From contig CM055273.1 of assembly GCA_029237695.1 (NCBI GenBank), forward strand, positions 55,231,968 to 55,295,967: a stretch of 64,000 nucleotides of DNA, in the 5' to 3' direction. Below the pieces are notes generated by a model, which did no database searches, was not told the origin of the DNA, and was given only the letters and a program-made list of their open reading frames with translations. Made by a program: the position numbers and the translations under genes. Positions 1 through 59,290 of the stretch are shown here, in pieces. This DNA is from Conchocele bisecta (Eukaryota > Mollusca > Bivalvia > Lucinida > Thyasiridae). Position 1 is the stretch's first letter. Each line of letters opens with the position of its first letter.

Positions 1-58
1 AACTACAACCCACGAGGAGGTGAAATTATGGCTCGTCGTCGCCCTCGTGGTGATCGTA

Positions 59-876: not shown

Positions 877-891
877 TGTTTCGTCGGTAGA

Positions 892-1305
892 CTATAGGGC
901 CTCTACAGCGCGGGCCGGCATAATTGTTTTACCACGCTTCCAATTTGGGAATCCGAATTCGTCCTTTACGATTTGGCCACCGCCCCTGTTTCCGGCAATG
1001 GTGTTCAGCGCTAGGGGTTTTCCGGTCCTCATATTGACTATCGGGATATTTGATGCTTTTAGTCGCAACCTACCCTTCAGATCCAATTCGAACTTGGAGT
1101 AGTCGCGGCCGACAAATGGGACCTCACCTTTTTCTGACAAACTGTTGTAGTAGTCGTCTACAGCTGACTTGACTAATTCCTGACTTAGACTAATGGTGCT
1201 GGTAGGGCCACCTATTTCCCCCAATTCACGAATTGGAACTGGAGTCTCTATGAAGGGCGTTTCGGCATCGATGTCATCATCGATGTCATCATCGATGTAT
1301 GACAT
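892..1305 (-). CDS. Conserved Polinton protein of unknown function (137 aa)
   Basis: An intact ORF of 137 codons starting at ATG 1305. The N-terminus is strongly acidic (SYIDDDIDDDID), followed by a Pro/Glu-rich stretch, a short helical section and a C-terminal half with a Gly-rich NRGGGQIVKDEFGFPNW segment that looks conserved. No transmembrane helix or catalytic motif is visible. It is divergently arranged with the capsid gene across a 97-base spacer and is followed after 15 bases by the broken coiled-coil gene, suggesting one leftward transcript. Part of the acidic N-terminus is encoded by the ATCGATGTCATC repeats that continue into the spacer, so the true start could be shorter and the repeat may have expanded into the coding region. 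I do not recognise its function; a minor virion role is a guess from position. Confidence 0.65.
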   Translation of the reverse strand: MSYIDDDIDDDIDAETPFIETPVPIRELGEIGGPTSTISLSQELVKSAVDDYYNSLSEKGEVPFVGRDYSKFELDLKGRLRLKASNIPIVNMRTGKPLALNTIAGNRGGGQIVKDEFGFPNWKRGKTIMPARAVEAL

Positions 1306-1402
1306 CGATGATTGTCATCATCGATGACATCATCGATGTCATCATCTCGGCCGACTTCGTCCATACGTCCAAAACCATACGGGTTTAATAGAGTATTTAA
1401 AT
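1262..1402. promoter_or_regulatory. Divergent promoter spacer with inverted ATCGATGTCATC repeats
   Basis: Between two diverging genes, ATCGATGTCATC units run in one orientation up to about 1300 and in the opposite orientation from about 1305 to 1345, making a long imperfect palindrome. A TATTTAAA sequence lies immediately before the capsid ATG at 1403. A shared bidirectional promoter or binding-site cluster is an inference; the repeats also code for the acidic N-terminus of the leftward gene. Confidence 0.4.
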
Positions 1403-2695
1403 ATGTCTTCGATTCAATACGGCCGCAAACTCAATCCATACCGCAGACTGCGGGAGCCCCTAGGGGCGAAAGGCGTGAGACAAAGCGTCGTTATTACGAA
1501 CAACCCATCGACGATCGACCAGAACCAGCAGCTCTTGGCCCGCTTTCCCAACCTCGGAGCTAATGACGTCATTGTGCCGGGGACTGTTCGCCTCGCTTTC
1601 ACTATTTCGCTGACGTCGACGGACGCGGACCGAACCGTCGTTCAGAACCTGGGTCGCGCCATCGTCAAGAAGACCATGATAATGATTTCTGGTAATGAGG
1701 TGATGTCGATCGACGACAGCGACGTCTACCATTGTTACCAGGATCTGTGGAAGACGGCGCAAGAGCGCGAAAATGCGGTCTATCAGGGTATTGACACTAG
1801 CAAAAATAAGAACGTAACCAGACTTAGAATCGGGGCTGGTAACAAGGCAGATAACGACGCGAGTGACAACGCGATCGCGGCCGCTTACGGCAATCGCTTC
1901 TACATCCCGCTCGACTTTGAGTTGCTGGAGAGTCACATGCCCTACTATCAGAGCGCGTTGGCTGACCGCGAATACGAACTAACGTTCAACGACTACGGCC
2001 GAGTTCTCATAGCCACCGACATGATATCGACGTATACGATCGATAATGTTTCGTTGGAGTACGACATGGTCACGATGCCCGAACTAGCGCGATTGATCAG
2101 AACCCAGTACGCCGGGCGCGTTGCCATACTTTACGACCGAGTTCTTCGTCACCGCAAGATGACGAAAGACAAAAGCGATACATTGTGGAATATTAATGTC
2201 AACGTACCCGCCCGCTCGATGAAAGGTACACTGATGCTGTTCGAGGAGGGTCGGTTCGCGCTCGGGGTTAGAAAAACCGATAAATTCTATAACCCCAAAA
2301 TCACAAAGGTCGAGGTGACGATCGAGGGAGTTCCCAATCAACTCTACAGCCAGGGCCTTCGCGCGCACCAGCAGTGGGACGAAGCCAGAAAGCAGTTTGC
2401 TGCCGGCTCTAAGCGCTCCCCGGAGGTTGCCGCGGTTGCTAAAGACCTGCAGCTGTCGGACGTCTCCCTCGCACAGTTCCTGACTTCCAAGTACGCGTTA
2501 TGGCTAGACATGCGAGCCAGAGACGACGACCAAATGCACGGTATTGGACGCCACGTTGAGAACGCTAGCGAGGGTGTGACGATCCAGATAACCAAAGAGG
2601 CGGATGGAGCTGGCGCATTGAACGTGTACTTATCTATAATCACAGACGCACAACTCAACATCGAAGATGGTCGATACGTCTCAGCGCTCTACTGA
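1403..2695 (+). CDS. MCP: Polinton/adintovirus major capsid protein (double jelly-roll type)
   Basis: An intact 430-codon ORF. It matches, from memory, the conserved animal Polinton capsid family that is often annotated as uncharacterized F54H12.2-like protein. Visible landmarks include the N-terminal PSTIDQNQ segment, DDVIVPGT-like beta strands near residue 55, YIPLDFELLESHMPYYQ near residue 165, SLEYDMVTMPELAR near residue 220, NVPARSMKGTLMLFEE near residue 265 and FYNPKITKVEVTIEGVPNQLYSQG near residue 300 (shown in part). Its role is to build the hexagonal shell capsomers; the double jelly-roll fold is established for the family but cannot be verified from sequence by eye. It is the best preserved large gene in the element, with no frameshift or stop. 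Its 3' end overlaps the start of the ATPase gene by 29 bases in another frame. Confidence 0.82.
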   Translation: MSSIQYGRKLNPYRRLREPLGAKGVRQSVVITNNPSTIDQNQQLLARFPNLGANDVIVPGTVRLAFTISLTSTDADRTVVQNLGRAIVKKTMIMISGNEVMSIDDSDVYHCYQDLWKTAQERENAVYQGIDTSKNKNVTRLRIGAGNKADNDASDNAIAAAYGNRFYIPLDFELLESHMPYYQSALADREYELTFNDYGRVLIATDMISTYTIDNVSLEYDMVTMPELARLIRTQYAGRVAILYDRVLRHRKMTKDKSDTLWNINVNVPARSMKGTLMLFEEGRFALGVRKTDKFYNPKITKVEVTIEGVPNQLYSQGLRAHQQWDEARKQFAAGSKRSPEVAAVAKDLQLSDVSLAQFLTSKYALWLDMRARDDDQMHGIGRHVENASEGVTIQITKEADGAGALNVYLSIITDAQLNIEDGRYVSALY

Positions 2696-3328
2696 TTTAA
2701 TAAAACATCATTCTACAGATTTAAATAAAAATAAAGTTTGTGATGCCCACTCTGCCATAATATGTGAGCAGACAGGATGTGGAAAAACAGTTTTCATCCT
2801 CAACTTGCTCGAGGGGTCCTACCGCGATATCTTTGGACACATTGTGATCCTGTGTCCCACTGTGCGGCACAACGAGACTTATCAGCGACGCCCGTGGATA
2901 TGGACCGACCCTGAGGTATACGTTATTGACCCCGGCGACAGGCTTCACGATTGGCTGCGTGGTTTATACCAATTGTTCAGGGCGCGAGCCCACCCTATAC
3001 GTATTGACGACTGCTCGGCCAAGGCGGCGATGACCAAAAAGAAGGACATGCTCTCCGAGCTCGCATTTTCTGGCCGCCAGCGGGGCAAAGCGTATGGATG
3101 TCCACTCAGAAGTACAACGCCGTCCTCAAGGATCTGCGCGAGCAAACGAAATGGGTCGCCCTCTTTCACTGCAAGGACCGAGACTCATTCGATGACTGTC
3201 TTCGAGAGAACAACGTTATCTCAACGCGCGAGGAGCGCCTGGAGGTTCGACAAATGCTTTCGGAAACTAAGCACGCCAAGCTTCTGCTAAAGACTGATCA
3301 ACCAACTGCTTACGAAGTTATTAATTAA
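2667..3328 (+). pseudogene. ATP: Polinton genome-packaging ATPase (FtsK/HerA type), frameshifted
   Basis: A P-loop ATPase that would pump the genome into capsids. Walker A reads EQTGCGKT near residue 35, followed by VFILNLLEG. Walker B is the IDDCSA segment near 3004-3021, and a sensor-like LSELAFSGR motif follows at about 3054-3080. The frame is lost in the C/G run near 3080-3087 and the conserved C-terminal part (STQKYNAVLKDLREQT, then FHCKDRDSFDDC) continues in the frame of 3098-3328. Just before Walker B, about 2977-3003, the family-like residues lie in a neighbouring frame, so two compensating indels seem to have scrambled eight or so residues. The first glycine expected in Walker A is glutamate (GAG), which by itself should weaken nucleotide binding. 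It starts inside the end of the capsid gene, as in a compact viral operon. Confidence 0.8.
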
Positions 3329-3599
3329 TTACTGAGCAATTGCTTAACGCTCGTTAGTAATTGCTGAGCAAATGCTTAACACTGCTGAGCAATTGCTGAA
3401 CAATGCTTAACAAATACTTAACAAATGTTGAACAAATGCTGAACAATGGTAAACAATGTGGGAATCAATTTGTTGCTCCGCTGCGAGCTTGGTTGTAAGT
3501 AAGTATCGGGTGGCGCACGTGGCAATATGTTAGACTGATGAGGCTAGTCAGAATAGTACTAATTATTAAAAATAAAATAATGAACTTCTCGATCAGCTA
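3329..3599. repeat. Gene-free spacer with degenerate TGCTGAGCAATTGCTTAACA repeats
   Basis: From about 3328 to 3455 the sequence repeats variants of TGCTGAGCAATTGCTTAACA, spaced every 12-20 bases with the subunits GCAATTGC and TGCTTAACA. The rest, to 3599, is AT-rich with no further structure that I see. It separates the ATPase from the small virion genes and could hold a terminator or promoter. Confidence 0.5.
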
Positions 3600-4234
3600 A
3601 TGGAAGAGACAGTCGTGTCGACTGCCGACGCGACATCTTTCCCAAAAGAAACTGTAGGAACCGACACGATATCTTTCCTGAAAGATGGCACGACTGCCGA
3701 TAATGTATCTTTCCTGAAAGAAAATGAAAACACGACGCGACGCGAGTGGCTAGCTGCGCTTGTTGCTGGGGACAATCGGAGCGGTATTTCGGTCGGCGTC
3801 TCTCAGTTTGCGATATGGACAAGATGTCAGATGTCGAGGTTGATAAAATGTATGCGCGATACGAATATAAATTGGGGGCAGAGATGACGAAAACTCTTGG
3901 ATCGGCGGCTATTCATTTGTACCCTACCGTTGTCAGTGCAATTCTCCCTATATCTGACACCGCGGGGTTGATTGGTGATCTAGAGACTGACCCTTTTGTA
4001 GGACACACTCTTAGAACAGCCTGCTGCTCAATTTATCACAAGTTTGGAATGTACTTAGCTCCGCTGACAACCGCGTTGACCACGGCTAAGCACTGTCAAT
4101 TTGGACATATATTCCCACGAACTATAAGCTCAGAAAATAATGACACAAGACGCGCCTGCGAGAGTGACGGAACAGACCTCAACTCACAATCGAGATTGGA
4201 TGAACCCGATTGTTCCCCCAACAGTGCTGGATGA
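3600..4234 (+). pseudogene. Polinton small virion-type protein (membrane-associated), frameshifted
   Basis: The N-terminal part opens at ATG 3600 with three imperfect copies of an SFLKD/E-type repeat, then a segment RREWLAALVAG. Around 3820 one base is missing and the family-like reading continues from ATG 3824 in the next frame (SDVEVDKMYARYEYKLGAEM), through PISD and DPFVGH blocks to YLAPLTTALTTAKHCQFGH. These blocks resemble a protein I remember from animal Polintons, always near the capsid genes; its function is not known to me. The C-terminal end probably belonged near 4140, where the next gene starts with an overlapping ATG, but the present frame runs on to 4234. The two frames cannot both be used without recoding, so I call it broken. 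Confidence 0.6.
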
Positions 4235-4637
4235 ACAAGCTCCACAGGAGCAAGCTCCGGTTGCACGACACAAAAACCCAAAAAGACAGGCAGCTGGGCG
4301 GGCAGCGGCTGCCACCCGAAAAGCTAAACAAGATAAGATTCTCGCCGAGCTTCGAGAGGCCAAACAGTCGTTGCAATCCCCGATTGCTGTTCCAGCCGCT
4401 CCAGCTCAGGAGCCACAATCGCAATTGGGGGTTCATCCGAAGACATCTGTTGCTGTAGCTCCTAACCGGATCATCCCGTGGGTTGTTGGTGGGGGTGTGA
4501 CAGTTGTGGGCACCCTGTGTGTGTGGAACTACCTTTCGAAACAACCTACAACAGTGTTGAAGACGGTTCCGAAGAAAGTTACGAAACCGATTGCGCCCCA
4601 TTTAAACATTAATCACGATCCCTTTTATATGCAATAA
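4140..4637 (+). CDS. Polinton Pro/Ala-rich single-pass membrane protein
   Basis: An intact 165-codon ORF. Residues 1-60 are polar and Pro/Gln-rich, residues 40-75 very basic (KNPKRQAAGRAAAATRKAKQ), residues 80-100 Pro/Ala-rich, and residues 103-128 form a likely transmembrane helix (IIPWVVGGGVTVVGTLCVW). A Lys-rich stretch and a short DPFYMQ end follow; the DPF-Y/F-M terminus looks like one shared by related elements. It starts at the end of the preceding broken gene and is followed after 5 bases by the next small gene, suggesting a tight rightward operon. A minor virion or membrane role is inferred from these features and position only. Confidence 0.6.
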   Translation: MTQDAPARVTEQTSTHNRDWMNPIVPPTVLDEQAPQEQAPVARHKNPKRQAAGRAAAATRKAKQDKILAELREAKQSLQSPIAVPAAPAQEPQSQLGVHPKTSVAVAPNRIIPWVVGGGVTVVGTLCVWNYLSKQPTTVLKTVPKKVTKPIAPHLNINHDPFYMQ

Positions 4638-4642
4638 ATATA

Positions 4643-4876
4643 ATGGCTGAAAACGAAGGTAAAATGATAGTGAATGCGGTTTATCACGCCGTGGTGATAT
4701 CAGGTCTCAGTATCGGGTTTGCTCGACTATCAAAGATGGTCTTCGGAGGGCCCTCTCCCAAATTGGACATGACTGCGAGAGACGTAGGGCTCGTGACCTT
4801 GAATGTAGCGTCCGCAATTTCGACCCGAGATTATCTAATTAAAGCCGGAATTCTACCTGCTAATATATGGAAATAA
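4643..4876 (+). CDS. Polinton small hydrophobic protein (77 aa)
   Basis: An intact 77-codon ORF. It has a likely N-terminal membrane helix (VYHAVVISGLSIGFARL, residues 13-29), a GGPSPKLDMT linker and a C-terminal helix ending in DYLIKAGILPANIWK. The RDYLIKAGILPANI end matches a small family I remember from animal Polintons. The TAA is followed directly by the ATG of the next gene at 4877, so translation is probably coupled. Function unknown. Confidence 0.65.
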   Translation: MAENEGKMIVNAVYHAVVISGLSIGFARLSKMVFGGPSPKLDMTARDVGLVTLNVASAISTRDYLIKAGILPANIWK

Positions 4877-5295
4877 ATGGCTTCTGCGGTCGCAACGGTA
4901 ATAGGTGGTGCGGTGGCGAACGCATTGTCGTTCAGCGGTAGCAACTATTTCTTCTCGCAACTAGGAAATGAATCGGATGAGGAGAAAAAGCGCCACGATT
5001 TAGCTACAGAACAATTTAATAGCGCAAAGGAAGCATGGGCGGAAAAACGAACCAACCGTGTGGACTAGATCAACGAAGAGCTTCGCCGCGAGAGTCACGC
5101 CGTGGAAACATTCAGGAACGTTGACGAAGCCATGCGCGATTACAAGCTGGCATATCCACAGAAAATTCTCTTACCGCTGGATCCCGAGCCCCAATTTTCA
5201 GATTTCTATGAACCGTCAGAGGCCGCGAGATCGAGTTCATCGTCGTGGGAATGGGCGTGGTGGGTCTCGTCAGCTACTATATTGAAAAAGCAATA
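4877..5295 (+). pseudogene. Polinton small membrane protein, broken by an amber codon and a frameshift
   Basis: It starts at ATG 4877 with a Gly/Ala-rich segment (GGAVANALSFSGSNYFF) and a charged helix. A TAG at 5066-5068 interrupts the frame, but the same frame continues with a clearly coding charged section (INEELRRESHAVETF, then FRNVDEAMRDY, then PEPQFSDFYEPSE). Near 5225 the frame shifts: the present frame gives a Ser/Trp-rich tail to 5295, while the +1-shifted frame encodes a typical hydrophobic helix (IVVGMGVVGLVSYYI). The family end is therefore probably the hydrophobic one. A run of AAGCAATAAGCA repeats follows at 5283-5322. The two lesions suggest long neutral decay. Confidence 0.65.
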
Positions 5296-5372
5296 AGCAA
5301 AAGCAATAAGCAAAAGCAATAAGAAATAATTATTTTAAATTTTTTTTTTAAATAATATATATATATAGAACG
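5296..5372 (+). promoter_or_regulatory. AT-rich spacer with TATA-like run
   Basis: Three AAAGCAATAAGC repeats are followed by T- and A-runs and a TATATATATATA stretch at about 5355-5367, six bases before the next ATG. It may serve as core promoter for the unknown protein and integrase genes; this is inferred from composition and position. Confidence 0.35.
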
Positions 5373-5705
5373 ATGTTAGTTGACGAGCTTTATTTTGCTC
5401 TAATCGATGTAGGCTACACGGCCCTTAAACACCGTTTAGCTGGCGCAAAGGGTCTGATCCGTCTGGCCCAAGATTCTCTTGAGACGTGGCGCGAGGACGA
5501 AAAAGCGGCCACACTATTCGAAAAGCGGATGTTAGATTCCTCCGAGTTCCCGCTCCCGAGCTGTAACCTAACCGGCAGTTGCAGCGAAACTTCCAACAAC
5601 GGTTTAGTATCGACGAAGCAGTTACCTTACGATCTAGCAAAGGCATGTTGGAGATTGTTCGCCCTACTAGAATACCTCGCATACGATGGACACGCGCAAG
5701 CTTGA
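5373..5705 (+). CDS. Unrecognised Polinton protein (110 aa)
   Basis: An intact 110-codon ORF that is mainly helical and charged, with a Cys-containing central segment (LPSCNLTGSC) and a C-terminal WRLFALLEYLAYDG stretch. No catalytic motif or membrane helix is clear. It overlaps the start of the integrase gene by 20 bases, so both are likely on one transcript. I do not recognise the family; it might be an accessory protein of this lineage. Confidence 0.5.
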   Translation: MLVDELYFALIDVGYTALKHRLAGAKGLIRLAQDSLETWREDEKAATLFEKRMLDSSEFPLPSCNLTGSCSETSNNGLVSTKQLPYDLAKACWRLFALLEYLAYDGHAQA

Positions 5706-6642
5706 TACCAAACTATCGGTTCGCCTAACGCGCAAGCTACTGAACACATACTACAGCCCACGCGGCTACTGGAAGGGACTCGCTGCCATCAAGAACCTTG
5801 CAGCGGCGACCAAGGTTTCCGAAAACGCCACCAAAGAATGGCTCAAGAAGCAGGCCCTCTGGCAGATCTATTTGCCAGCACCTCACAATATTCCGCGGCC
5901 TAAAATCGACGTGCCGGTGCCGAACGAAGTCCACCAAAAAGATCTCCTTTTTCTCCCTCACGATCGCGTCGGTCGCAAGACGTACAAGTACGCACGGACA
6001 ATCGTTGACGTAGCCAGACGATATAAGGGGGCTGAGCCGCTAGCCACTAAATAGTCTAAGGAGGTGGCCGATGCTCTTTCCCGAATGTATAAGAGGAGTC
6101 CTCTCAAATGGCCGAATCTTCTCCAGGTCGATCCCGGCCGCGAGTTCATGGGTGTGGTCTCAGTTTCTGTCAGACGCGGCGGCGTCAACATCCACCGGGA
6201 CCAGGGGATCGTGGAGCGGTTCAATCGATCACTAGCTGAGAGGCTGTTCGGGCACCAATATGCCAAAGAACTTGTAGACCCTCATTCGCGATCGACCGAG
6301 TGGGTGACCCGGCTGCCCGCCGTGGTCTCCGCATTGAACGGCGAGGTGTCCAGATTGATCGGTAAAAAGCCTGTAGATGCCATCAAGTCTAAAACGGTGT
6401 CGCACAAACCATCTGCCGTCTCGCGCGGGCGACCCATTGGTTTAGCTGAGAAACGGCTTCCATCGGATGTTACCGTCCGGTACCTCTATCAACCGGGAGA
6501 GCTCGAAGGTGGCCGCCGCCGCGCGACTGATCCCGTGTGGTCCCTAAATGTATATAATCTAGATCGATCTATTACCAAACCCGATGAGCCCGTGCTCTAC
6601 TATTTGGATGATGGTCCATCGCGCGGGTTTGTTGGCGAATAA
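5686..6642 (+). pseudogene. INT: Polinton DDE integrase (rve type) with in-frame amber codon
   Basis: A retrovirus-like integrase that joins element ends to host DNA. The N-terminal domain covers about residues 1-75. The catalytic core has the first Asp in HQKDLLFLPHDR, a VDVARRYKGAEPL block, the second Asp in LLQVDPGREFMG (6123-6158) and the Glu in GIVERFNRSLAERLFG. A basic C-terminal part follows, ending in a YYLDDGPSRGFVGE tail. A TAG at 6052-6054 splits the ORF between the first and second Asp; the reading frame is unchanged across it, so it is a simple point lesion. The three catalytic acidic residues are otherwise intact. It lies tail-to-tail with the polymerase. Confidence 0.85.
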
Positions 6643-6765
6643 TTTCTCCTGGTGGCTTCTGACACCCAGCTACCACCGGTCCGTCCATCGTCATAGTCGG
6701 TCAGACTCTCGTCAGAGTCTTTAGTATTCTCCCCTTTTTTCAGAGTTCTTTTTGTTTTACCTATC
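6643..6765. other. Spacer between convergent integrase and polymerase genes
   Basis: A 123-base gap between two converging genes. It is pyrimidine-rich near 6720-6760 (CTCCCCTTTTTT). I see no clear terminator hairpin or polyadenylation hexamer. Confidence 0.4.
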
Positions 6766-9700
6766 CTATAGGCTCGGTGTGTACCCCGTCTCCATCACTC
6801 TCCTCTTGTCGTAGTACGCCGACAACCCCAACTTCTCCTGCTTGTACGTCTTCATCACACCGTTAACAATTCGGAATCCCCTGTTCTCTGCCATGTCCAT
6901 ACCCCCTTCGAGAGCACTGTTGTACCTCCCCCAAGTCAGATTGTTAGATATCCTCGACATCCCCTTGGCCGAATGCTTAATTTGTTCGTCACCGCTCACG
7001 TAGTAACACTTGCTGCACAGCGCGATGGCTCTATCTCCATCGAATTCCAGCTTGAACAGTCCCGGAGTTCTGTTGCTCCACGCCAACCACGCCAACCACT
7101 CAGCCTTCTCCTTGTTGAACTTTCTCTTCATCTTCTTTCTCACCACCTTCGCCAGCGTCATCTCCGACAGCGCGAAGTACATGCTATCAGTGTCGATCTG
7201 TATAAGTTCGAAATCTCCGCGATCCACGTACTTGTCCAAGAAGTCGTAGTAGAACTCCAGCATCCGGAGCTTGGCCAACTGGTAGACCGCTATGCCACAC
7301 TGAAACGGTCTGTTGATCACCACTCGAGTCTTCCTGCTCGATATCTCGTAAGCCTCCCCAATCTCCTCCAGGTCTTCGAACCACGCCGACCTCAGTGCCC
7401 GATCGACAGTCTTCTCATCCTTCGTATATGTGGTGTTCAGGTGTCTCTCTTGTGCCTCTATCAGCTTGCCACAACACGCGTTGTCAACCAGTTTGAATAT
7501 CTCAGCCAACACCACCTTGCTCATGTCGACGTCCCCCTTCCGTCTGGCGGCGGTGACCTCTTTAATGAACCTTTGAAACGGTTTGCCGGGCGTGTAGTCT
7601 ATCACCCTATGCACCGCCTTGACGACCAGACCGTGCTCCAGATACCACTTTAGCAGCCGGGAGTATATGATCATATTCTTGGCGGACAGTGCACCCAATG
7701 AGCTTTATCTGTCCTTCGACCCTTTTCCTCCCGGTCCTGGTCAGATAGTCCTTCATGTGCTGAGGAACCTCGGTCTCGTCGACTTCTCGATTAACGAACA
7801 GCGGCGACATTTCAGAGAACTTGTCTCGCAACGTTTCCGGGACCTCTATATCCAACTCTGCAAATCCGAACAACTTGTCATTCCTGACCTTCCTCACGAA
7901 ACAGTCTATATACGACTGTCTTTCCGGGTGGTCACCCGTCCATATCGTCTCCTCCCCGCACGGCATGTCTTTCGACAGGGTAGACAGATACAGCGCATTG
8001 GCGTCGTACCCCAGCACCGCCTTGCACATCTTCTCCTCCCGACTCCCTACCTGACCCCCGATCGTCGACCTGCCAGACTCTGCGTATCTGGAGAACACTA
8101 TGGACGGACCACCGACCAATCCCTCCTTCATCATCGCGTAAGTCTCACCCTTCGGCGCCCACAGCTCGGGTGTGTCCACCTTCCCATCGATCGACCCGCG
8201 GAGAAGGTACTGAAGGGAAACACCAGGCAGAGACACAGCGTCCTTGAGTATGTCCACGCCTCTTCCCCTGTAGAACTCCGTCATTTTAGTCAGTGCCTCC
8301 AGGAGCGGTCCGACATCCAAGTCGTTGTAGTGTTGCAACCATTCATGGAACGTCTTCATCCCCTTTTCTCGGAATACCTTCTTGCACTCTTTCCACTCGG
8401 ACAGCGACAGTAGGAACTCACCCTTCAACTTCGAGTACCACTCGGGATAGTCGGGCAGCCCCGGATGGTCGAGTTTTTCTGATGAATCGAACCACTCGTA
8501 CGGGAAGTGAGACTTTACCGTTTTACAGTCGTACGCCTTAACCCACCGGTCATAACTGATGCCGGGTCCCAGATATTGTATGATATCGAGAAATCTGAAC
8601 TCCGTGGTTAACAGAAACATCGTCGTGCTGGCCCTCTTTCCGACCATCACCTTATTCACTGTGGCCGCCAACTTCTCGACAAGGTACCGCTTGATGAGAT
8701 TCAGGTCGTACCTGCTGCAGTTGAACCCCACCACTGGGATTTGGTCGATCCACGAGACGATCTTCTCTCGCTGAGGTTTCGACAGCATCTCTATGTCGAT
8801 CGGCAGATACTTCTTCCTAACCCCCTCCCTGATGACTTTACCTCTCCTCTGCAGCTCGGTCACGAACTTCTCGACCAGAGTGTCGGGGTCTCGTTCGCAG
8901 ATGTGGGTGATCCCCTCGTGCATCGTATCCCCCAACGACACCGACATAGGGACGTGCTCGACCTCGAAGGTCGAGGTGTTTGGTGGGTCGCTTGATTTTC
9001 GACTTGTCGAGATAAGCTTCGAAGTTGTAGACTATCTGGTGAGAGTACAGAGTCGTCTCCTCATCGCGCGGTGGTGGTTCATAATGGGCCTCCTTCAACA
9101 ACTCGCACTCCCACATCACCACCAGTTCGTAACCCGCCTCCCTTATCTTAGCGTCTTGTATTTTCGTCCTCTCGTACAGCGATCTAGCGTTACCTCTCAC
9201 GCAATGCGTCGGACACCCGTGCCAGTGGCATCCGTGAAACTGAAACACGTTCTTGATTTCGTGACAGTAGCCGTCTACCGGATCGCCGGCACCCACCTCT
9301 CGCCCCCGTGACGGCATCTCGCGTGATGTATGTGCTTTCCCACCCTCTCCTCTTCTCTGCTCAACCATCGAATCGACATCGCACTCGCTGACCCCTTGGG
9401 ATAGAACGCCTTCTCGTATGCCGTCTGCGGTCTCTCTACCCTCTTACCTGGACATATCACCACGGTCTTCCCACCCATGCAGGTGGTCGCGTGCCTGTGC
9501 ATGTTACACGACTTTGTGAACCATTGTTGACATCCGGAGCACCCGTACTCGTTCGTCATCTTGCGGAGGTTCGTTATGAGGAACGAGTGACCTGCAAACA
9601 TTCCTATCGTCATGATCTTCTCCCCAACCGCGTCGTAGTTTGCCGGAGACTTCATTAGGTACCACACTCCGTCGGCGGTGGGCTCGTAAACGCGAATGCC

Positions 9701-10603
9701 CAGCTTGAAGCGCTCTTCTACCTTCTTAATATCATCCAGGGGGATTCTCTTACTACCCGGTCCGTTATCGTGCCCGAGGTATTCACGAGCCAGAGATCGT
9801 GCCTTCTCACAACAGCAGTCGGGTCTCCCTCCACGGTGGATGGCTATGCACCTAAACAGACACAAGTAGTCGTCGTACTTGTCGACGGAATACATTCCCT
9901 TTTTCTGTCTTAACCAGTCGGGGAGTTTTCCCGCTCCCATGAGAAGTTGTTGCGCATCGATGATCATCTTTACCTCGATCGATATCCAACGAACGAAGGT
10001 CCATTTTGTGTTTGGTCTATCGACTTTGTCGTTGTCCATTCGACCTGTCTCTCTATCGGATATCCAACTCTCAGTTTTGGCGATCTCGTTTATCCACGGA
10101 CTGCCCTTTGATTGTTTGTGATAGATCATAGTAGCGTCGGTCTCTATGTTCCTAATACGATACGAGCACGAATACCTCAGATAACATGCCGTGGTCATCT
10201 CTGGGCGAATATTATTCATTATGCGATTAGCCATCTCCCCGTCTATCCCCCTCTCGAAAGTACTATCTTCCTCCTACCCCTATCAACAGTTTCCCTAGCT
10301 TCCGCATATTCAGCGAGAACCTTGGGACCCTCCTCCACCAAATCTTTGGCGAGCTCTATCCTACTCTTAGGAGGTCTCCCCACCAACCGTTGATAAATCT
10401 TATTGTAGTACGCCTTGCATAGTGGTTTTCTGCGCGCGCTGGGATCTTCTTTTACACGCTGCGCGTAAGCGGTGGCACGAAGACTGGCCGTTGTCACGTT
10501 CTTCAATTTCTCGGAGCGTTTTTCGGGGTTTCTTGAGTCTCAAACCTCTTAGGGAAATTCCCCAACTCTTAGCTTGCTCTCTCATTTGCTTTATGGTAGA
10601 CAT
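6766..10603 (-). pseudogene. POLB: Polinton protein-primed family B DNA polymerase, broken into several frames
   Basis: It replicates the linear element by protein priming. Pieces run 10603 to about 10500, 10506-10243, 10234-9275, 9368-8838, 8947-7607 and 7698-6766. The N-terminus (STIKQMREQAKSWGISLRG) looks like a SAP/HeH-type helix pair. A Cys/His cluster follows near 9480-9540 (CSGCQQWF, CNMHRHATTC), then a block FQFHGCHWHGC. Exonuclease motifs are NFEAYLD (Exo I, 9004-9026), GFNCSRYD (Exo II) and YNDLD (Exo III). Polymerase motif A is GYDANALYL near 8000-8020, motif B KLVDNACCGK near 7460, and motif C DTDSMYF near 7185. Frame changes near 10500, 10250 (G run), 9300-9330, 8950 and 7690 make at least five lesions, and Exo I has Asn where family B enzymes have Asp. 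Total about 1,280 codons, normal for Polinton polymerases. Confidence 0.88.
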
Positions 10604-11110: not shown

Positions 11111-14100
11111 GACTGAGCCCTGTAAAGAAAACATGTTAGGTAATCAATACAGCTTCAAATGATGATGATATGCTTATACAATAAATATAATCTAACATGT
11201 GCGTTGATTTAATTTATTAAACTGGCTGACTAACATCATAAGAAACGAGGCTATGCCGAGTAAACTCGTTTAATAAATATATAATTAAATCATCACTCTA
11301 TGTACATGTACATTGTAGTTCGGGCATTCGGGTTAAAGAGGTTCCATTCTAAGGCACATATGCGAGCGCTGCTAGATATAGAATAATAATGAAGTAATTA
11401 CAATTTTCGAGAGAAAAAAATCGAAAAGAACATTTTATTTTGTATGTGTGTTTTGCAGCAAAGAACAGAAAGTATCGCCAGAGATAACGAACAAGAAAAC
11501 CCTATCAAACTTCAACATACATATTATTTTCGAGAGGTTCAACTATACCTTGAGTCGAAAGCAAACCAATCCCAGCACTACCTCGGCCACAATCTCAAAC
11601 CTGTCGTCATCTTCCACCATCTTCTCGAACTCTTTGGCCAACCGGCAGTGCTGCACATAAAGAATACCAGACAGGTGACGTTGGTAAAAGGTGGCCAACC
11701 ACCATCGGCTTTACCTATACAGTGGAACCTATCTAAACCGGACACCCTGGGAGGTCCCCAGACGGATGACCACTTCAAGACACGCATTGTTGCCTTGCAG
11801 TTATACATATATTGTCATTGAATGTAATATCAATGGAATATGTAATAGTTACTGCCCTAATCGAGGTGTTCATGTGTTTGAACAACCTACATGTGCCTAT
11901 GGAACCCCGAGCCGCGAAGCGGCGAGGTGTTTCATGTGCACATGTAGGTTGCTTAAACACATGAACACCTCGATTAGGGCAGTAACTGACTTACACATCG
12001 ACTTATTGACAACCGTTGGCCAGTATTCAGTGGAAATTTTGAATTTCCATTTGACATTAAATGAACTGCAGTTATGACAGTCAATAAAATCCATGTACGT
12101 ATGCTGCCAGTGGGAGTATACGTGTCCCATTGACACATTTCTCATTATTATCTGTGTTTGATGTCTAACGTATACGTAGGCGAAGCAAGCACTTAATATG
12201 CTGTATAATATGCATTTGAACATGCTTGCATAAATCATACTAATTCACAGAGATTACCAGGCTAGTGTAGTTTGAAATACCAGTGTATCAGGCAAGACTA
12301 TGCCGTTTCCGAGCCGATCCTCATTATCTTGATATCGAAAGACACTAGACTAGTATTTTATTTATCAGGTAACGTTTTATGCTAGCCAATGATCAAATTT
12401 AAAACTGTTTTCGTTGAAAAGAACGCGGACTTGTTTACGTTACGTAGTATAGTACAGTGGAACATCCGCAGGGTGTCCGCAGGGTGTCCAGCTTATATAG
12501 GCATCACTGTAACAAGAAATGACAGCGTTTAACGAAGCTTATGCCCTCGCAGTCTGCCTTGATAATAATAAAAACACAAGTCATCGGTGACCTTGACCTT
12601 GGGCTGTCGTACTGGCAGCCTTGATAATGAAATAAGGACTTTAACAGTATTGCCTTACAAATGTGCCTTATTACCAACAAGGTGAATATAAGTCCTCAGT
12701 GACATTGACCTTGGGCGGTCGGATGTGGGTAGCATGCATAACAAAGCACCATCACATTATGGCCAAATATTATCAAAATTGGCAAAGCGGTTCATCAGTT
12801 TTTGAATAATGAAAGGTGTTACTAATGTACGTATGCATGTATGTACGTACGTATGAAATGACATTCATTTAATGAATGAAGAAATATTAGCATAATTAAA
12901 ACAACAATCAAATTTAAAGACACGTGGTCTTAGGTATGTGCATAAAGTGATGAAACATGTTTAATTTAGGAAACAATAATTTAATGGTAGATTTACATGG
13001 ACTGCCTTAACCAAATCATTCGTATAGGTCGTCTTGAAAAGAATCAGTATTTGGTAAAATATGTTTATTATACCAAATCATAAATAGCGTTGCGAACGCT
13101 AGTTTTGTTGACAGTCGATGGTACTATTTTTATTTAGTTGAATTAATTCCACACGTGTCTATAAATAGCAACATATTATATGTGTGGAACAGTATTTTGA
13201 TTTCAAACTAAAAAAAATTTTATGTTTCACAAAGTGTGCTTCCTGGTACTGAAATAGCGAACGGAAATGCGTTACCTACTTATCTCCCCTCTTCATCCGA
13301 GTTATTGTAGTACATTGTGTATAAGAAAACACACAGTCCTTGTATATGGCATTTGGAGTCAATAAAGCGAAAATGAAAATAAAATTGAATAGCTTCGACA
13401 TCATCTGAAACATCATGTGAGACACTGTTTCTTTAAAATACGTTAGCACATCTCTTTTGTCATATATCATCAATTGGGTCTCTGTAGAGTTCGCATCATT
13501 TACAATTTAATCATTCATATGTTTAGCCACTGTATTTTCACATGCAGTTTCAGTAATAAACCAACTGAAGTGATTGAACTTAATGTAAGTGATTGATGCA
13601 GTTGTCATTCAACAATGAAACATGCCCTTTTGTACGATAATATAACTATTCTCAGTCAAAATGCAGAATATATCAGAGTTGTATGCCAGTCCACGTGTAC
13701 AATGTACATGCATTTTATTAGTATAATGCATACATTTGACTTTCGTAGGTAGCGTATTAGTCATAATACACTAGTGTAATAAATGTGCAAATCAGACGGG
13801 TACAATAAAACACGTTAGGTAACCAGTATATGCTTAGTATTATGCTGTGCTCCTGCAATAAAGCAACTCTAACATTTGTGTTGATGTAATATGATATTTA
13901 TTATAGCTCCTTGACTGATTTATTAATAGTAAACTCGTTAATAAATATCATCGTAAATCATCACGCAAGTAAGATCCTCTCTATATATATATAATATAGA
14001 CCAGATGAAATATGCACTTCACGAGTGGCGTAGGTTTATAACACTTTTCTGTTACTTACTGAACGCCCCTCATTTATGTCCCTATTTTTGTAGGTGACAA

Positions 14101-16174: not shown

Positions 16175-16700
16175 TTAACCCTTTCAACACCGCATGCCTG
16201 TATAGTGGCATTGGCAAATAGTGTAGATCCAGATCAGCCGGATCGTGACGATCCGTCTCACCAAGATCTGCACTTTTTGAAAATAATTGTCATATTGTTG
16301 AGAACAAAAACACCCCCTTTTCATAACAGGACTAGTCTAAAATCATTTTGTGACGATTGGATTGGTTGAAATTAACGTATCAAAATCCATTCCAGTTACT
16401 TGGGTGTGAAAGGGTTAAGTTGCATTCAGACAAAAGCGATATACCCTACGAATGTATTCCTGGACGCCGCTAACGCCATAGGACCGCAGCATAAACCCCA
16501 ACTTCAGCGAGCGGAATCTGCCAGTGCTGAAAACGTCAATATCAAATTGTTGCCGAGTAAACTACATATATATGTAAACTTTGAATATGTGATTGGAGAA
16601 ATGAGGTTTCTGGGTTTTACGACCAGTGTAGATTCCGATCAGCCTGTGTATCCGCACAGTCTGATCAGAATCTGCACTGTTCGTCACTCAATCGATTAAC
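16175..16700. repeat. Dispersed repeat with GTGTAGATCCAGATCAGCC core
   Basis: Two stretches (about 16180-16420 and 16615-16690) contain AGTGTAGATYC followed by GATCAGCC and then TCTGATCAGAATCTGCAC or equivalents. Further fragments occur near 14520, 25500, 37950 and 42670. I remember this pattern as a common SINE-like dispersed repeat of heterodont bivalve genomes, which supports the organism call. Confidence 0.5.
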
Positions 16701-17591: not shown

Positions 17592-17682
17592 CCTATAATC
17601 GGGGACGCGACCTTCATTCTCATGGCGGAGGTATATCGGGTCTACATTGAAGGCGTCCACCAAGTATGAGCTGTTCTTCATC
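17592..17682 (-). CDS. Decarboxylase exon 10 (last recognised)
   Basis: 91 bases after acceptor TGTTTCAG, completing Trp and continuing MKNSSYLVDAFNVDPIYLRH, then ENEGRVPDYR; donor GTAATT. The next family block (HWQIPLGRRF) should follow in phase 0 but was not identified downstream. Confidence 0.88.
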
Positions 17683-18749: not shown

Positions 18750-19209
18750 TACGGAGCCCCGCAGGGGACGTATTTTTTTTTTGTATTAATTCGTTCCCAC
18801 GAAATAACAATTCATTCACTCAATTTAACAATTCGTTCCCATGAATTAATAATTCGTTCCCACGAAATAACAATTCGTTACCTCAATTTAACAATTCGTT
18901 CCCACGAATTAACATTTCGTTCCCGCGAATTAACAATTCGTTCCCTCAATTTAACGATTCGTTCCCACGAAATAGCAATTCGTTCCCACGGGAACGAATT
19001 GTTAATTCGTGGGAACGAATTGTTATATCGTGGGAACGAATTGTTAATTCGAGGGAACGAATTGTTAAATTGAGGAACGAATTGTCATTTCGTGGGAACG
19101 AATTGTTTTATCGTGGGAACGAATTGTTAATTCGAATTGTTAAATTGAGGGAACGAATTGTTATTTCGTAGGAACGAATTAATGAAAAAATCCCTTGCGG
19201 GGCTCCGTA
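18750..19209. mobile_element. Fold-back element 1 with AATTCGTTCCC minisatellite arms
   Basis: Ends TACGGAGCCCCGCAGGGG and its near reverse complement CCCTTGCGGGGCTCCGTA flank arms built of about 20-base units AACAATTCGTTCCCACGAAT, in one orientation up to about 18990 and inverted after it. It is flanked by direct repeats AGAAGC (18744-18749 and 19210-19215), a plausible 6-base target duplication. Non-coding, inside a decarboxylase intron. Confidence 0.82.
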
Positions 19210-20462: not shown

Positions 20463-20530
20463 CACATCACGGAGAGGTCGAAATTAACGAGCATCCATTT
20501 ATGTGGGTTAATGCTGAATGTTTGCCCATA
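20463..20530 (-). CDS. Decarboxylase exon 9
   Basis: 68 bases after acceptor GAATTGCAG: YGQTFSINPHKWMLVNFDLS, then VM and two bases of a Trp codon; donor GTAAGA. NPHKW contains the lysine that binds PLP. The phase matches exon 10 exactly. Confidence 0.9.
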
Positions 20531-21084: not shown

Positions 21085-21179
21085 CTGTATTCCTTCCATT
21101 ATATATCTGTATTCTGGACAGACAAACGCACTACCAGCGTATGCTGCATCAATATGCAGCCACATGTCGTGTTCCTCGC
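21085..21179 (-). CDS. Decarboxylase exon 8
   Basis: 95 bases after acceptor TACTTTTAG, phase 1, completing the Cys codon from exon 7. It reads [20 protein letters not shown] and [11 protein letters not shown]; donor [14 protein letters not shown] holds the aspartate that contacts the PLP pyridine nitrogen. Confidence 0.88.
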
Positions 21180-21735: not shown

Positions 21736-22033
21736 CTGTAGCCGATTTCACTAATTTGTCTAGCAAAGTATACTTTGAGGGAGTAATCATCTATTTTTTC
21801 CTGAAATGCATGATTTCATATAGAACTAACGACTGCATATATTTGATGATTAAAAGTATGCAGAATTATTATACTGAATTTATTACATTATCACAGCCAA
21901 AATGGCTGTGATAATGTAATAAATTCAGTATAATAAAAATTCAAATAAATTTATCCTAAAATTGAAAATTTCTCCCTCAAAGTATACTTTGCTAGAAAAG
22001 TATACTTTGCAATGTTGGTGAAATAGGCTACTG
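21736..22033. mobile_element. Harbinger-like palindromic MITE, copy 1
   Basis: Terminal TAGCC...GGCTA with subterminal AAGTATACTTTG repeats and a central palindrome CACAGCCAAAATGGCTGTG. Flanked by CTG on both sides, the 3-base duplication seen in all three copies. Lies 41 bases from decarboxylase exon 7. Confidence 0.75.
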
Positions 22034-22073: not shown

Positions 22074-22140
22074 AAATTGGGCCCAGCTCCGCTAAATTAT
22101 CGAATGCACAGGAACCAGTCGTACCCAGAGACGCGCACAG
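22074..22140 (-). CDS. Decarboxylase exon 7
   Basis: 67 bases after acceptor TTATTGCAG: LCASLGTTGSCAFDNLAELG, then PI and one base of the next Cys codon; donor GTAAGA. LGTTGxCAFD is the family motif next to the PLP pocket. Confidence 0.88.
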
Positions 22141-22229: not shown

Positions 22230-22612
22230 ACTATAGGAATGAATGGCCTTTTTGTGGAATTTATCGGGGTAAAATTACAATTTTCGAAAAAAAATCTAAT
22301 TTTTTTTATTCTTTTTCGAAAATTGTAATTTTTTAAGGCCTCGTCCAGTATTCCCGCGACTTTTCCAAGTTTATATCCCCGATAAATTCCACAAAAATGC
22401 CATTCATTCCTTATAATTCCAGCATTTTAAATAAATTAATCAAGAACATGTGTTTATTTTCCGTTTTCTTAAGAATTATTTTAACTGCGCCTCACGGTTA
22501 CGGAAAGTAGTTCGGCGTGGGAGTTTACTGGGATATACATTTTGGACAGAGACTTGGTACGGGCCAATCAAATGTTAGGGAATTGTGAAAATATTTTTGT
22601 GCTGGAATTATA
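22230..22612 (+). mobile_element. MITE family B, copy 1
   Basis: Starts ATAGGAATGAATGGCCTTTT, has a hairpin with GTCCAGTATTCCCGCGAC, and ends GTGCTGGAATTAT. Other copies are at 35.1 kb (inverted, nested in a Harbinger-like MITE) and 44.5 kb. Here one hairpin arm is replaced by an AAAATTACAATTTTCG inverted segment. Confidence 0.65.
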
Positions 22613-23424: not shown

Positions 23425-23874
23425 GAAAAATGGAATTCGTCCTTCTGCCTTGTCCTTGGCTATGGCTTCACGTATGGTCTCTCCACGGAGACTGAATGTT
23501 CAGTCGCTGGGAAGTTTGGTCATTTTTACAGCACCGAGTAGACCTGTAGCCCATTTCACCAACATTGCAAAGTATACTTTTCTAGAAAAGTATACTTTGA
23601 GGGAGTAATCCTTTATTTTTCCTCAAATGCATTATGTCATATAGAACTAACTACTGCTTATATTTGATGATTAAAAGTATGCAGAATTATTATACTGATT
23701 TTTTTACATTATCACAGCCATTTTGGCTGTGAAAATGTAAAAAATTCAGTATAATAAAAATGAATAAATTTATCCTAAAATTGAAAATTTCTCCCTCAAA
23801 GTATACTTTGCTAGATAAGTATACTTTGCAATGTTGATGAAATAGGCTACTGGTGTATGAACCGAGGAGTTCGC
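23425..23874 (-). pseudogene. Decarboxylase exon 6, split by a MITE and an in-frame TGA
   Basis: The exon begins after acceptor ATTCCAG at 23874 with ANSSVHT, runs 25 bases to the CAG at 23852-23850, is interrupted by a 303-base MITE, then resumes past a second CAG (23546-23544) as GLLGAVKMTKLPSD. Removing the MITE and one CAG aligns it to the family without gaps. A TGA (about 23508) follows PSD, then TFSLRGETIREAIAKDKAEG and RIPFF to donor GTAAGC at 23424. The family AHSSV histidine, which stacks on PLP, is Asn. Both the insertion and the TGA should prevent a functional protein. Confidence 0.82.
23544..23852. mobile_element. Harbinger-like palindromic MITE, copy 2, inside decarboxylase exon 6
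   Basis: About 303 bases with ends TAGCC/GGCTA, AAGTATACTTT subterminal repeats and a central palindrome around CACAGCCATTTTGGCTGTG. CTG lies at both borders. The reconstructed empty site on the coding strand reads ACACCAGGTCT. Zebrafish Harbinger3-type elements are remembered to duplicate CWG within a target of the form ACACCWGGTCT. Confidence 0.8.
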
Positions 23875-24224: not shown

Positions 24225-24359
24225 CTGATCCGAGCTATATCCAACCAGGCGCGAGATCAGCTCCATCTTGTTGACATCGGGGTCCTCCGCTTTGTACGTA
24301 GCCACCATTCTGCTGCGTGCAGCCAGCAGGCAGAGGAATACTGTCTCGCTAGCTGAGGA
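24225..24359 (-). CDS. Decarboxylase exon 5
   Basis: 45 codons after acceptor TTGACAG: SSASETVFLCLLAARSRMVA, ending LVGYSSDQ, donor GTATGC. The usual GTASE is SSASE here. It should continue directly into the AHSSV-type motif of exon 6. Confidence 0.88.
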
Positions 24360-24837: not shown

Positions 24838-24957
24838 CTGTATGACCCCGCCACCGGCTCCCGGCCCACAGTGCAGGAAGTCCTCCGTTAGGGCCAACAT
24901 CTTTCCCAGCCAATCCGTGGTGATCACTTCTAGCTCCGTACACGCCGGACTCGTCGC
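24838..24957 (-). CDS. Decarboxylase exon 4
   Basis: 40 codons after acceptor [28 protein letters not shown], continuing to [10 protein letters not shown], donor [14 protein letters not shown] and GGGVIQ are family signatures in the PLP-phosphate binding region. Confidence 0.9.
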
Positions 24958-25688: not shown

Positions 25689-25802
25689 CCATGAGAAGCC
25701 GATACAGCCGATGGCGTCAGAGAGCATGTCTCTCAGTATGGACGGGTAGGAACTGCCCGCTGCAAAGTAGCCATGGAAGAACGGACTGTGCCAGTGGGTA
25801 AC
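25689..25802 (-). CDS. Decarboxylase exon 3
   Basis: 38 codons after acceptor [28 protein letters not shown], then [18 protein letters not shown], donor GTATAA. It covers the family VTHWxSPxFxxYF active-site loop and the [14 protein letters not shown] helix. Confidence 0.88.
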
Positions 25803-27738: not shown

Positions 27739-27822
27739 CCCTGGCATAATAACGCTCTCTATGTCTTTGAAAACCTCGCTGAGCTCCTCTGGTGTCTGCG
27801 GCGCTTCCTTCGGCAGAAGGTC
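27739..27822 (-). CDS. Decarboxylase exon 2
   Basis: 28 codons after acceptor CTCTCTGCAG, reading DLLPKEAPQTPEELSEVFKD and then IESVIMPG; donor GTAGGT. It joins exon 1 in phase 0 to give the family PGY-(x)n-PxxAPxxPE and IxxxIMPG pattern. Confidence 0.88.
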
Positions 27823-29815: not shown

Positions 29816-29932
29816 CTTCATGTAGCCCGGCTGTACCCTGTGCACAACCTCCCGCTCCCGGATATTCTCCACATAGTCGGCGATGTAGTCCACCATTTGG
29901 CGCCCATATTTGCGGAATTCATCGGCGTTCAT
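29816..29932 (-). CDS. Decarboxylase exon 1 (start codon exon)
   Basis: 39 codons from ATG at 29932 to PGYMK, then donor GTATGG. The sequence MNADEFRKYGRQMVDYIADY is typical of the family N-terminus. Phase 0 end. A MITE end (CTTATCTGGAGCTCTTT) lies just downstream at 29772. Confidence 0.88.
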
Positions 29933-34814: not shown

Positions 34815-35460
34815 CAGTAGCCTATTTCACCAACATTGCAAAGTATACTTTTCTAGCAAAGCATACTTTGAGGGAGTAATCATTTATTTTTCCTGAAATG
34901 CATTATTTCATATAGAACTAACGACTGCATATATTTGATGATAAAAAGTATGCAGAATTATTATACAGAATTTATTACATTATCGCAGCCAAAATGGCTG
35001 TGATAATGTAATAAATTCAGTATAAAATAAAAAATAATAAATTTGTCCTTAGATTGAAAATTTCTCCCTCAAAGTATACATTGCAATGATTCCAGCACAA
35101 AAATATTTACACAATTCCCTAACATTTGATTGGCCCATAGCAAGTCTCTGTCCAAAATGTATATCCCAGTAAACTCCCATGCCGAACTACTTTCCGTAGC
35201 CGTCAGGCGCAGTTAAAATTCTTAAGAAAACGGAAAATAAACACATTTTCTTGATGAATTTATTTAAAATGCTGGAATTATAAGGAATGAATGGCATTTT
35301 TGTGGAATTTATCGGGGATATAAACTTGGAAAAGTCGCGGGAATACTGGACGAGGCCTTCCGGCCTTCGTCCAGTATTCCCGCGACTTTTCCAAGTTTAT
35401 ACCCCGATAAATTCCACAAAAAGGCCACCATTCCTATAATGTTGATGAAATAGGCTACAG
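34815..35460. mobile_element. Harbinger-like MITE, copy 3, with nested family B MITE
   Basis: CAG flanks both sides. The MITE matches the copies at 21.7 and 23.5 kb, but a family B element (about 35093-35440, inverted, with the CGGCCTTCGTCCAGTATTCC hairpin) is inserted just before its right end, with AATG repeated at the junctions. Confidence 0.75.
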
Positions 35461-40487: not shown

Positions 40488-42466
40488 ATGGCGGATAATG
40501 TAGGACGTAGACTGAAGTCGATAGTGACGGAATGCTCAATTTGTTCGGAAACTTTGAAGTTTAAATTACCATGTTCACACACATTCTGTCAATCGTGTTT
40601 ATCGGGATATATATCATCCGAAAAATCATCAACAAAAGGTGGGATTAATTGCCCAATGTGTATAGACGGTTTATCCCTATAAACGCTGACATTGATAGGG
40701 AAAACTGGGTCAGTGAATTTCCGGAAAATCGCCAGGTCGCCGAGATAGCTATTGTGGAGGGTGTCACAGTGGAAACTATGCAGGTTAACAACGAGGATTG
40801 CCAAACCTGTGAGACGGACGGTAAACATGTAAAGGCGTTGTATTTCTGTTTTCATTGCAATGAGCAGATATGTAAGGAATGCCGCGAAATGCATTTGAAA
40901 ATGAAACAATTGAAGCATCATAATATAACTGACCTTGAATCAGTTGAGACGGGTAGAAAGCTAAAGACGAAGCTTGTCACGGATTGTGTTACACATCCTG
41001 GTAAAGAAATCGAATATTTCTGCCACGATCATAAGACACTGTGCTGTAGTAAATGTTTGTTTGTCACACATAGAAAGTGTTCAGATGTTGCTGGGGTTGA
41101 GGATTGTTTGGACAAGTTTAAGGCAAAGTCGGATTTGTCTGAGATCATTAAAGAGACCAAGCATATGTTGGATGGAATACATGCTATACAGACAAATGAT
41201 AGGGCCGTATTAACGTCTCTAAAAAGTGACGTTGAGAATGTTCAGCGGATTCTTGACGAATGCAGGAAACATATACTAGAGGTATTCAACGAGACAAGCT
41301 CTAGAATTTATAAAGCAGTCAATGAAAAATGCAAAGAAGAATGTGAAAAGATCAATTGCCACATGAGGGCCTGCAAAAAAATAGAAGATGATCTGGAGAA
41401 TGTTCAAAACGTCGCACAAATAGTTGCGGAACATGGCGATGATATACAGCAGTTTGTAGTTACAAGAAGATTTGGAGATGAAATGGCGATACATACGGGA
41501 GACATGGTACGGCTAGCAGGCGATACAACGTCTGTGACAATTCAACCAGCAGTTGGCGACGAATTCAAACGGCACGTCACGGAGCTTGACAGACATTTCT
41601 CTGTCAAAGTGAACGTATCCATTCCAAAACTCCGTGAGACGTACAAATGGACCCCCAATAAACCAATATCTGCACAACTTTTAACAACATTTTCCTGCGC
41701 TATACCGTCAGATGTAAATGTACCTTGTATTACCGGTATATGCTTCTTATCAGATTCTCGCAGTGTTCTGCTTGACTACAAAAACTCGACACTTAAGTTA
41801 TATTGCCCCAGCCATACGCTGTTAACATTTCATAAGCTAAAGATCAAGCCATGGAATGTAGTTTGCGTGAAAGACTCGCAGATTGCAGTAAGCTGTGATC
41901 GTGTGACAAATAAAATTTACATTTATGCCATTATTAACGATGTCTTCAAATGTACAAAGGAGGTCAATGTTTCAGAAACTGCTATGGGTATATCTCTTAC
42001 AGTGTTCACGGCAGAGGAAATAATTGCTACCGCATCAGTGAACCACCATTGTCATATTGAGCGTATATCCATTGATGGCACGCCGACATCACCAGTAATA
42101 AAGGTTCCCTGGGTATATGACCATGTATCAACCGTGGCTCTATCACCAGATGGCGAATCGATGTACATGACTAGTTACGCAACAAATAAGCTTATTAAAA
42201 CTGACAAACTAGGTAACATTAAACACACATACGGTGACTTGAACAAGCCGGTAAGTTTAGCGGTACATCCAAATGGTAGCCTGTTTGTCTGTTCAATGAA
42301 CGGAAAAGAACTTATCCATATGACACAAGACCTGAAATTAATACAAACAGTTATTTCTGCTGATGAAGGCAAACATCCAGCGCATGTTGTATTCAACAGT
42401 GACGCTGCAAATATGTGGGTTTCCTTCTTTGGCAGTAAAAGTGTTATAATTTACAAACTTCAGTGA
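40488..42466 (+). pseudogene. TRIM-type RING / B-box / coiled-coil / beta-propeller protein, intronless, 2-nt frameshift
   Basis: Probably an E3 ubiquitin ligase of the TRIM family. ATG 40488 has a good context (AACAAAATGG). The RING is ECSICSETLKFK, LPCSHTFCQSCL and CPMC (codons about 16-58), all eight ligands present. Directly after the last RING Cys (40659-40661) two extra bases (TA) shift the frame; the original frame stops at 40680, and the rest (40667-42466) is open in the second frame. There it has B-box 1 (CQTC...FCFHC...CKEC...HLKMKQLKHHNI), B-box 2 (CVTH...YFCHDH...CCSKC...THRKC), a coiled coil of about 110 residues and a C-terminal repeat domain resembling NHL/beta-propeller blades (TVALSPDGESMYMTS, SLAVHPNGSLFVCS). 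No introns, as in many expanded bivalve TRIM genes. The frameshift may be real or a sequencing error; a start at 40649 or lower would lack the RING. Confidence 0.82.
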
Positions 42467-44504: not shown

Positions 44505-45005
44505 TTCTACACAGTCAATATTATAGGAATTAATGGCCTTTTTGTGGAAGTTATCGGGGTATAAACTTGGAAAAGTCGCGGGAATACTGGACGAAGGCCG
44601 GAAGGCCTCGTCCAGTATTCCCGCGACTTTTCCAAGTTTATATCCCCGATAAATTCAACAAAAAGGCCATTAATTCCTTATAATTCCAGAATTTTAAATA
44701 AATTCATCAAGAAAATGTGTTTATTTTCCGTTTTCTTAAGAATTATTTTAACTGCGCCTCACGGTTACGGAAAGTAGTTCGGCGTGGGAGTTTACTGGGA
44801 TATACATTTTGGACAGAGACTTGCGACGGGCCAATCAAATGTTATGGAATTGTGTAAATATTTTTGTGCTAGAATTATGGTGTCGTGTTGCCCATCTGAA
44901 TCTATATTCACCCGAGGCGCAGCATTCACCTGAGGCGCATCCGATGGAGAATATAGCTTCATACGGGCAACATGACACCATATTGACTTTGTAGAAACAC
45001 AATAA
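44505..45005. mobile_element. Palindrome family E, copy 2, with nested family B MITE
   Basis: The left tip ACACAGTCAATAT (44507-44517) continues after the family B element as GGTGTCGTGTTGCCCATCTG (44878) and closes with CAACATGACACCATATTGAC. The family B insert (about 44520-44877) has ATAGGAATTAATGGCC and GTGCTAGAATTAT ends. Confidence 0.7.
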
Positions 45006-59200: not shown

Positions 59201-59290
59201 CCTTTTCATAATTTTATATCACCTTCGCCTTTTGACCTTCACCAGGTTACTTAAATGACTTAACCACTTTGTCACAGTTTCTCAAATATG
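56206..59290 (+). repeat. Satellite array, about 177-base unit, 17 or so copies
   Basis: Units share GGTTAACCAGTTCGTCACAG, TTTCTCAAACTGGCCATATC, CATTCATTGGTATGTGTGCC, CACCTGCCTTTTCATAATTT and TTTTGACCTTCACCAGGTTA. Starts fall at 56397, 56574, 56765, 56946, 57123, 57300 and 57476, giving 176-177 bases for clean units. Left-hand units are well preserved; units right of about 58.4 kb have many single-base indels. Open frames in it are repeat artefacts. Confidence 0.93.

Follow-up and report, generated by a model that had tools for sequence, protein, structure and literature searches.

A MITE lying within a coding exon in a 64,000-nucleotide stretch of DNA (hereafter the window) raises the questions of how the element was inserted, which type of transposase may have moved it and whether its arrival disabled the gene. 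We addressed these questions by placing the exons of the host gene with the help of its homologues, reading the unoccupied target from the coding constraint on the interrupted exon, and comparing the three copies of the element in the window with each other and with known transposon families.

The host gene and its residue at position 192

Judging from homology, the host is an aromatic-L-amino-acid-decarboxylase-like (AADC-like) gene on the minus strand, extending from 29932 to 11549. Homology follows the protein exon by exon over 12 exons, consistent with the PF00282 family. The exons were placed by tblastn using ten of the first 15 homologues as queries, and their borders were chosen by hand from the matches. 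AG precedes 11 of the 12 exons (exon 1 begins at ATG) and GT follows all 12:

29816-29932, minus strand: exon 1, begins at ATG
27739-27822, minus strand: exon 2
25689-25802, minus strand: exon 3
24838-24957, minus strand: exon 4
24225-24359, minus strand: exon 5
23425-23874, minus strand: exon 6, 450 nt with the MITE and 144 nt without it, in-frame TGA (SD*TF)
22074-22140, minus strand: exon 7
21085-21179, minus strand: exon 8
20463-20530, minus strand: exon 9
17592-17682, minus strand: exon 10
16445-16526, minus strand: exon 11, 82 nt against 99 predicted from homologues
11549-11650, minus strand: exon 12

A C-terminal exon beyond exon 12 could not be found by tblastn (E up to 0.1) in the remaining 11.5 kb of the window. 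When joined, the minus-strand pieces match solved structures of aromatic-L-amino-acid decarboxylases (best E 3.4e-37), and their best match is P0001 from the freshwater mussel Potamilus streckersoni (71% identity). A protein search yielded 7601 matches; the best 120 of these plus P0001 constitute the 121 homologues referred to below. The top one among the best 120 is P0121, with 68% identity to the joined pieces, and the first 15 of them comprise four proteins without an organism name (P0121 included) and 11 named bivalve or gastropod proteins (from Meretrix, Ruditapes, Mizuhopecten, Mytilus, Haliotis, Dreissena, Tegillarca, Littorina (two proteins), Pinctada, and Pecten). Among the best 120 of the 7601 matches and P0001, the closest named matches of the host gene are bivalve. 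To judge by these protein identities, the animal is probably a bivalve.

The start of exon 6 (23853-23874) encodes Asn at the position equivalent to His192 of Drosophila DDC. Asn is the residue found at this position in insect dihydroxyphenylacetaldehyde synthases. It is present in all 16 chosen mollusc or mollusc-like rows (P0001 and P0121-P0135, four of them without an organism name) and in 18 of the 121 homologues, the two besides the 16 being insects (P0186 and P0210). His occupies this position in the gastropod Batillaria (P0140), which is outside the 16 chosen rows and speaks against a clean rule. A tree was built from 29 chosen rows, of which 12 belong to the 16 mollusc or mollusc-like ones and 17 do not; in it, the molluscan rows and Batillaria form one group with a support of 100/100, and at least three changes of residue 192 are forced. 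The Asn of the ant Vollenhovia stands apart from the molluscan Asn and adjoins a bee with His, and the wasp Leptopilina lies on a long branch beside the root of the drawing, where its Asn is inseparable from the molluscan one. As a side result, a molluscan decarboxylase-like clade carries the residue that, in the cited account of the fly enzyme, switches it to aldehyde synthesis: replacement of His192 by Asn is described there as giving Drosophila DDC dihydroxyphenylacetaldehyde synthase activity (PMC6411801). Asn192 predicts aldehyde-forming enzymes in molluscs; our search of a paper library returned none with both "dihydroxyphenylacetaldehyde synthase" and "mollusc".

Several other features were recorded in the window. 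A Polinton/Maverick-like stretch occupies about 1-10400 and includes a match to DNA polymerase type B, organellar and viral (PF03175), at 7610-9031 on the minus strand, as well as frames that by eye resemble a capsid protein, a packaging ATPase and an integrase and have no Pfam match. A large inverted repeat at 18788-19180 consists of two facing tandem arrays whose unit is 21 bp long (AATTCGTTCCCACGAATTAAC). A long, TRIM/NHL-like open frame at 40649-42466 has, besides a B-box match, a beta-propeller-like match that is weak and falls below the cut-off, and a protein search with the B-box open frame (40757-42463) gave none of 4721 candidates at E <= 0.001. Reverse-transcriptase-like open frames lie in three pieces at 50972-53282; of two pieces tested, RVT_1 matches only the last (52287-53279). 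A satellite-like tandem array with a 177-bp unit (17 copies, 94% matches) spans 56213-59271. Nothing in the window reached the gathering scores of Rfam.

The insertion in exon 6 and its empty site

The three copies of the element and the duplication that borders the exonic one are located as follows:

21739-22030: MITE copy 1, 292 bp, CTG/CTG, in the intron that separates exons 7 and 8 of the AADC-like gene
23544-23546: left CTG of the target site duplication
23547-23849, gene strand (minus): MITE copy 2, 303 bp, within exon 6 of the AADC-like gene
23850-23852: right CTG of the target site duplication
34818-35457: MITE copy 3, 640 bp, CAG/CAG, carrying a nested hairpin element at about 35086-35440

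The first-pass annotation had described a 303-bp MITE in a coding exon with CTG on each side, and exon 6 contains exactly this at 23547-23849. The element is short and non-coding, has terminal inverted repeats and is present in three copies, all of them with target duplications. Copy 2 starts with TAGCCC and finishes with GGCTA, its terminal inverted repeats read TAGCC(C/T)ATTTCA(C/T)CAACATTGCAAAGTATACTT, and 55 of 60 positions pair in reverse complement; TAGCC begins the ends of all three copies. Folded as a single strand, copy 2 reaches -85.1 kcal/mol; shuffled sequences average -21.8 (z -17.5), and none of 100 was equally low.

When the 303 bases and one CTG are removed, an exon of 144 nt is left, the first 30 residues of which (ANSSVHTPGLLGAVKMTKLPSD...) align without gaps to all 121 homologues, so that the ungapped family alignment claimed earlier for this site was recovered. 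CTG was duplicated upon insertion at copy 2. The duplication is exactly 3 bp there because the base before CTG differs (C versus A), although the register of the cut cannot be fixed, since shifts of 1-3 bases yield an identical empty site. On the coding strand the empty site reads ATACACCAGGTCTAC, and therefore ACACCAGGTCT is exact. The earlier observation that CWG borders all three copies also stands (CTG, CTG, and CAG, identical on both sides), with homologue comparison establishing a 3-bp duplication for copy 2 alone. From base composition, the chance that each of three copies has the same 3-mer on its two sides is about 5e-6, a generous figure in that only W (T/T, T/T, A/A) would be informative should the element or the target dictate C and G. 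For a MITE that duplicates CWG, exon 6 thus offers one clean natural empty site in a bivalve-like genome, recovered from the coding constraint on the exon; as an insertion, it is a clear but ordinary example.

BLAST identities of the other copies to copy 2 are 92.0% (275 aligned positions) and 90.3% (267), and a three-way alignment gives pairwise values of 88.1 to 92.4%, the lower of which take in columns adjoining the nested insert of copy 3. Because the copies are only 88.1 to 92.4% alike, they probably do not represent a fresh burst. Interruption of exon 7 by copy 1 was considered and ruled out, as a GTAAGA donor closes the exon at 22074, 43 bases before the MITE. A separate repeat, about 364 bp in length and carrying a long hairpin towards one of its ends, occurs at about 35086-35445, 44515-44878, and 22232-22611; its copies are 94.5-95.7% alike, the third is rearranged, and one is nested in MITE copy 3.

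Searches for the element elsewhere used its terminal motif. The longer motif had no match in either the GTDB or the viral collection. The sole terminal-motif match in the viral collection (L001) was rejected as chance: it shares 24 exact bases and a few weak short matches with the MITE, its surrounding sequence differs, and comparison with the whole window gave no further blastn or tblastx match at E 1e-3. A literature search found no title or abstract describing this TAGCC-ended element.

Lesions of the gene and their order

This copy of the AADC-like gene is a pseudogene with two lesions besides the MITE. One is an in-frame TGA in exon 6, which lies outside the insert, after 14 further codons past the insertion site. 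The other is a 17-nt deletion in exon 11 that shifts the frame after HWQIPL, where the homologues' HWQIPLGRRFRSLK... needs 99 nt and 82 are present; slippage between two copies of AGATTCCGCT would account for the loss. The MITE itself adds 306 nt including the duplication. A multiple of three might have preserved the frame, but the insert contains in-frame stops, the first at codon 35 of exon 6, which rules this out.

The MITE may have killed the gene, with the TGA and the frameshift arising afterwards once selection had relaxed, although we regard this as less likely than not. The stops brought into exon 6 by the insert agree with such an order, as does the state of the ten remaining exons of the 12 placed, which have AG/GT borders and neither stop nor frameshift. 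However, one window gives no order for the three lesions, and the TGA or the frameshift alone would likewise disable the product. Because of these independent lesions, the gene's death cannot be put down to the MITE; the description "exon-disrupting" in the first-pass annotation is right for the sequence, but the MITE need not have been what killed the gene. That a product is still made, with the MITE-bearing exon 6 skipped or the insert spliced out, is highly improbable. In its favour, the length of exon 6 is divisible by three whether or not the insert is present, which means that skipping would leave the frame intact, and two acceptor-like AGs occur in the exon (one inside the insert, preceded by 12/15 pyrimidines). 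Against it, the two patterns scanned revealed no donor-like site in the exon, skipping would cost the protein the residues near position 192, the TGA is not part of the insert, and the exon 11 frameshift persists however exon 6 is spliced.

Target preference and transposon affinity

The integration target of zebrafish Harbinger3_DR is given in the cited account as AAACACCWGGTCTTT (PMC3016246). On the better strand, copy 2 fits this 15-mer at 12/15 positions, copy 3 at 10/15, and copy 1 at 6/15, scores which are reached by 1, 44, and 1219, respectively, of the 1714 CWG sites in the window. For the inner 11-mer, the copy 2 site scores 11/11, which none of the 1714 sites reaches, whereas copy 3 scores 8 (reached by 79/1714) and copy 1 scores 5 (1179/1714). 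A Harbinger3-like target with an ACACCWGGTCT core, as proposed before, has strong support at copy 2, weak support at copy 3 and none at copy 1. Since the match is strong at only one of three copies, the extended target amounts to no more than a preference of this MITE family. The CWG rule holds at 3/3 copies and the extended target is convincing at 1/3, and three copies are too few for a logo; a single good-looking target match makes no family rule until all copies have been collected.

With regard to the origin of the element, we consider it probable that a non-autonomous cut-and-paste element of a NuwaI/Harbinger3-like PHIS transposase was inserted in the decarboxylase-like exon 6 and duplicated CTG. 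NuwaI and PIF-Harbinger elements are mobilised by a PHIS DDE transposase together with a Myb/SANT protein. A CWG-duplicating transposase of this putative type would have moved the MITE in trans, insertion would have taken place at the centre of CCAGG within the exon, and strand transfer with a 3-bp stagger across CWG would account for the duplicated CTG. What was read directly comprises the MITE with its ends, the 3-bp duplication, the sequence of the empty site, exon 6 and the in-frame stops within the insert, and the one feature that points to the superfamily is the 3-bp CWG duplication. PIF/Harbinger in the strict sense is described as duplicating 5'-TWA-3' (PMC4482050), which does not agree with CWG at 3/3 copies. 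In the same account, CWG duplication defines NuwaI within PHIS, known from 16 animal genomes including one mollusc, and NuwaI ends usually begin with GGG. The duplications in the window (CTG, CTG, and CAG, with a homologue-read empty site for one copy) agree with the former feature, and the TAGCC ends of all three copies depart from the latter, for which the source says "usually".

A rather unlikely, though by no means negligible, alternative is that the MITE belongs to another 3-bp-duplicating superfamily (AcademX, Zator or a CACTA relative) and that its likeness to the Harbinger3 target is a one-site coincidence. Zator and CACTA relatives also make 3-bp duplications; we know of no CWG preference in AcademX, Zator or CACTA relatives. 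The TAGCC ends, unlike the usual GGG of NuwaI, would suit such an origin, as would the 3- or 4-bp duplications reported for AcademX in the cited text (PMC10045372) and the composition of a curated bivalve transposon library, in which 100 Academ and 3 Zator elements are stated against 58 PIF-Harbinger elements (PMC10294476). However, CWG at 3/3 copies and the exact 11-bp core at one site fit PHIS/NuwaI/Harbinger3, a reading for which the 58 PIF-Harbinger elements of that library also speak. Less likely again is that the TAGCC-ended elements form a separate, undescribed animal lineage with a NuwaI-like CWG duplication, possibly a loose extended target, and other ends; if this were true, the target rule would have been conserved through a change of the terminal sequence.

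Within the preferred reading, a NuwaI/Harbinger3-like PHIS element, three known systems offer the closest comparisons. Zebrafish Harbinger3_DR and Harbinger3N_DR (PIF/Harbinger) share a CWG-centred target, the copy 2 site agreeing with AAACACCWGGTCTTT at 12/15 positions and the other two copies at 10/15 and 6/15; the comparison covers the target, and only MITEs, with no autonomous element or transposase, were seen here. Likewise known here only from MITEs, the TAGCC-ended family resembles NuwaI, as portrayed in the cited source (PMC4482050), in CWG duplication, animal host and the presence of a mollusc among the known hosts, with inverted repeats of 12-61 bp there and about 60 bp in MITE copy 2, whereas the ends are TAGCC here and usually GGG there. 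Tourist-type MITEs such as mPing (PIF/Harbinger) are, in the cited description (PMC2836001), similarly short and non-autonomous, and they too have inverted ends and duplicate 3 bp, but the duplicated bases are TTA/TAA, whereas the element in exon 6 and its relatives in the window duplicate CWG.
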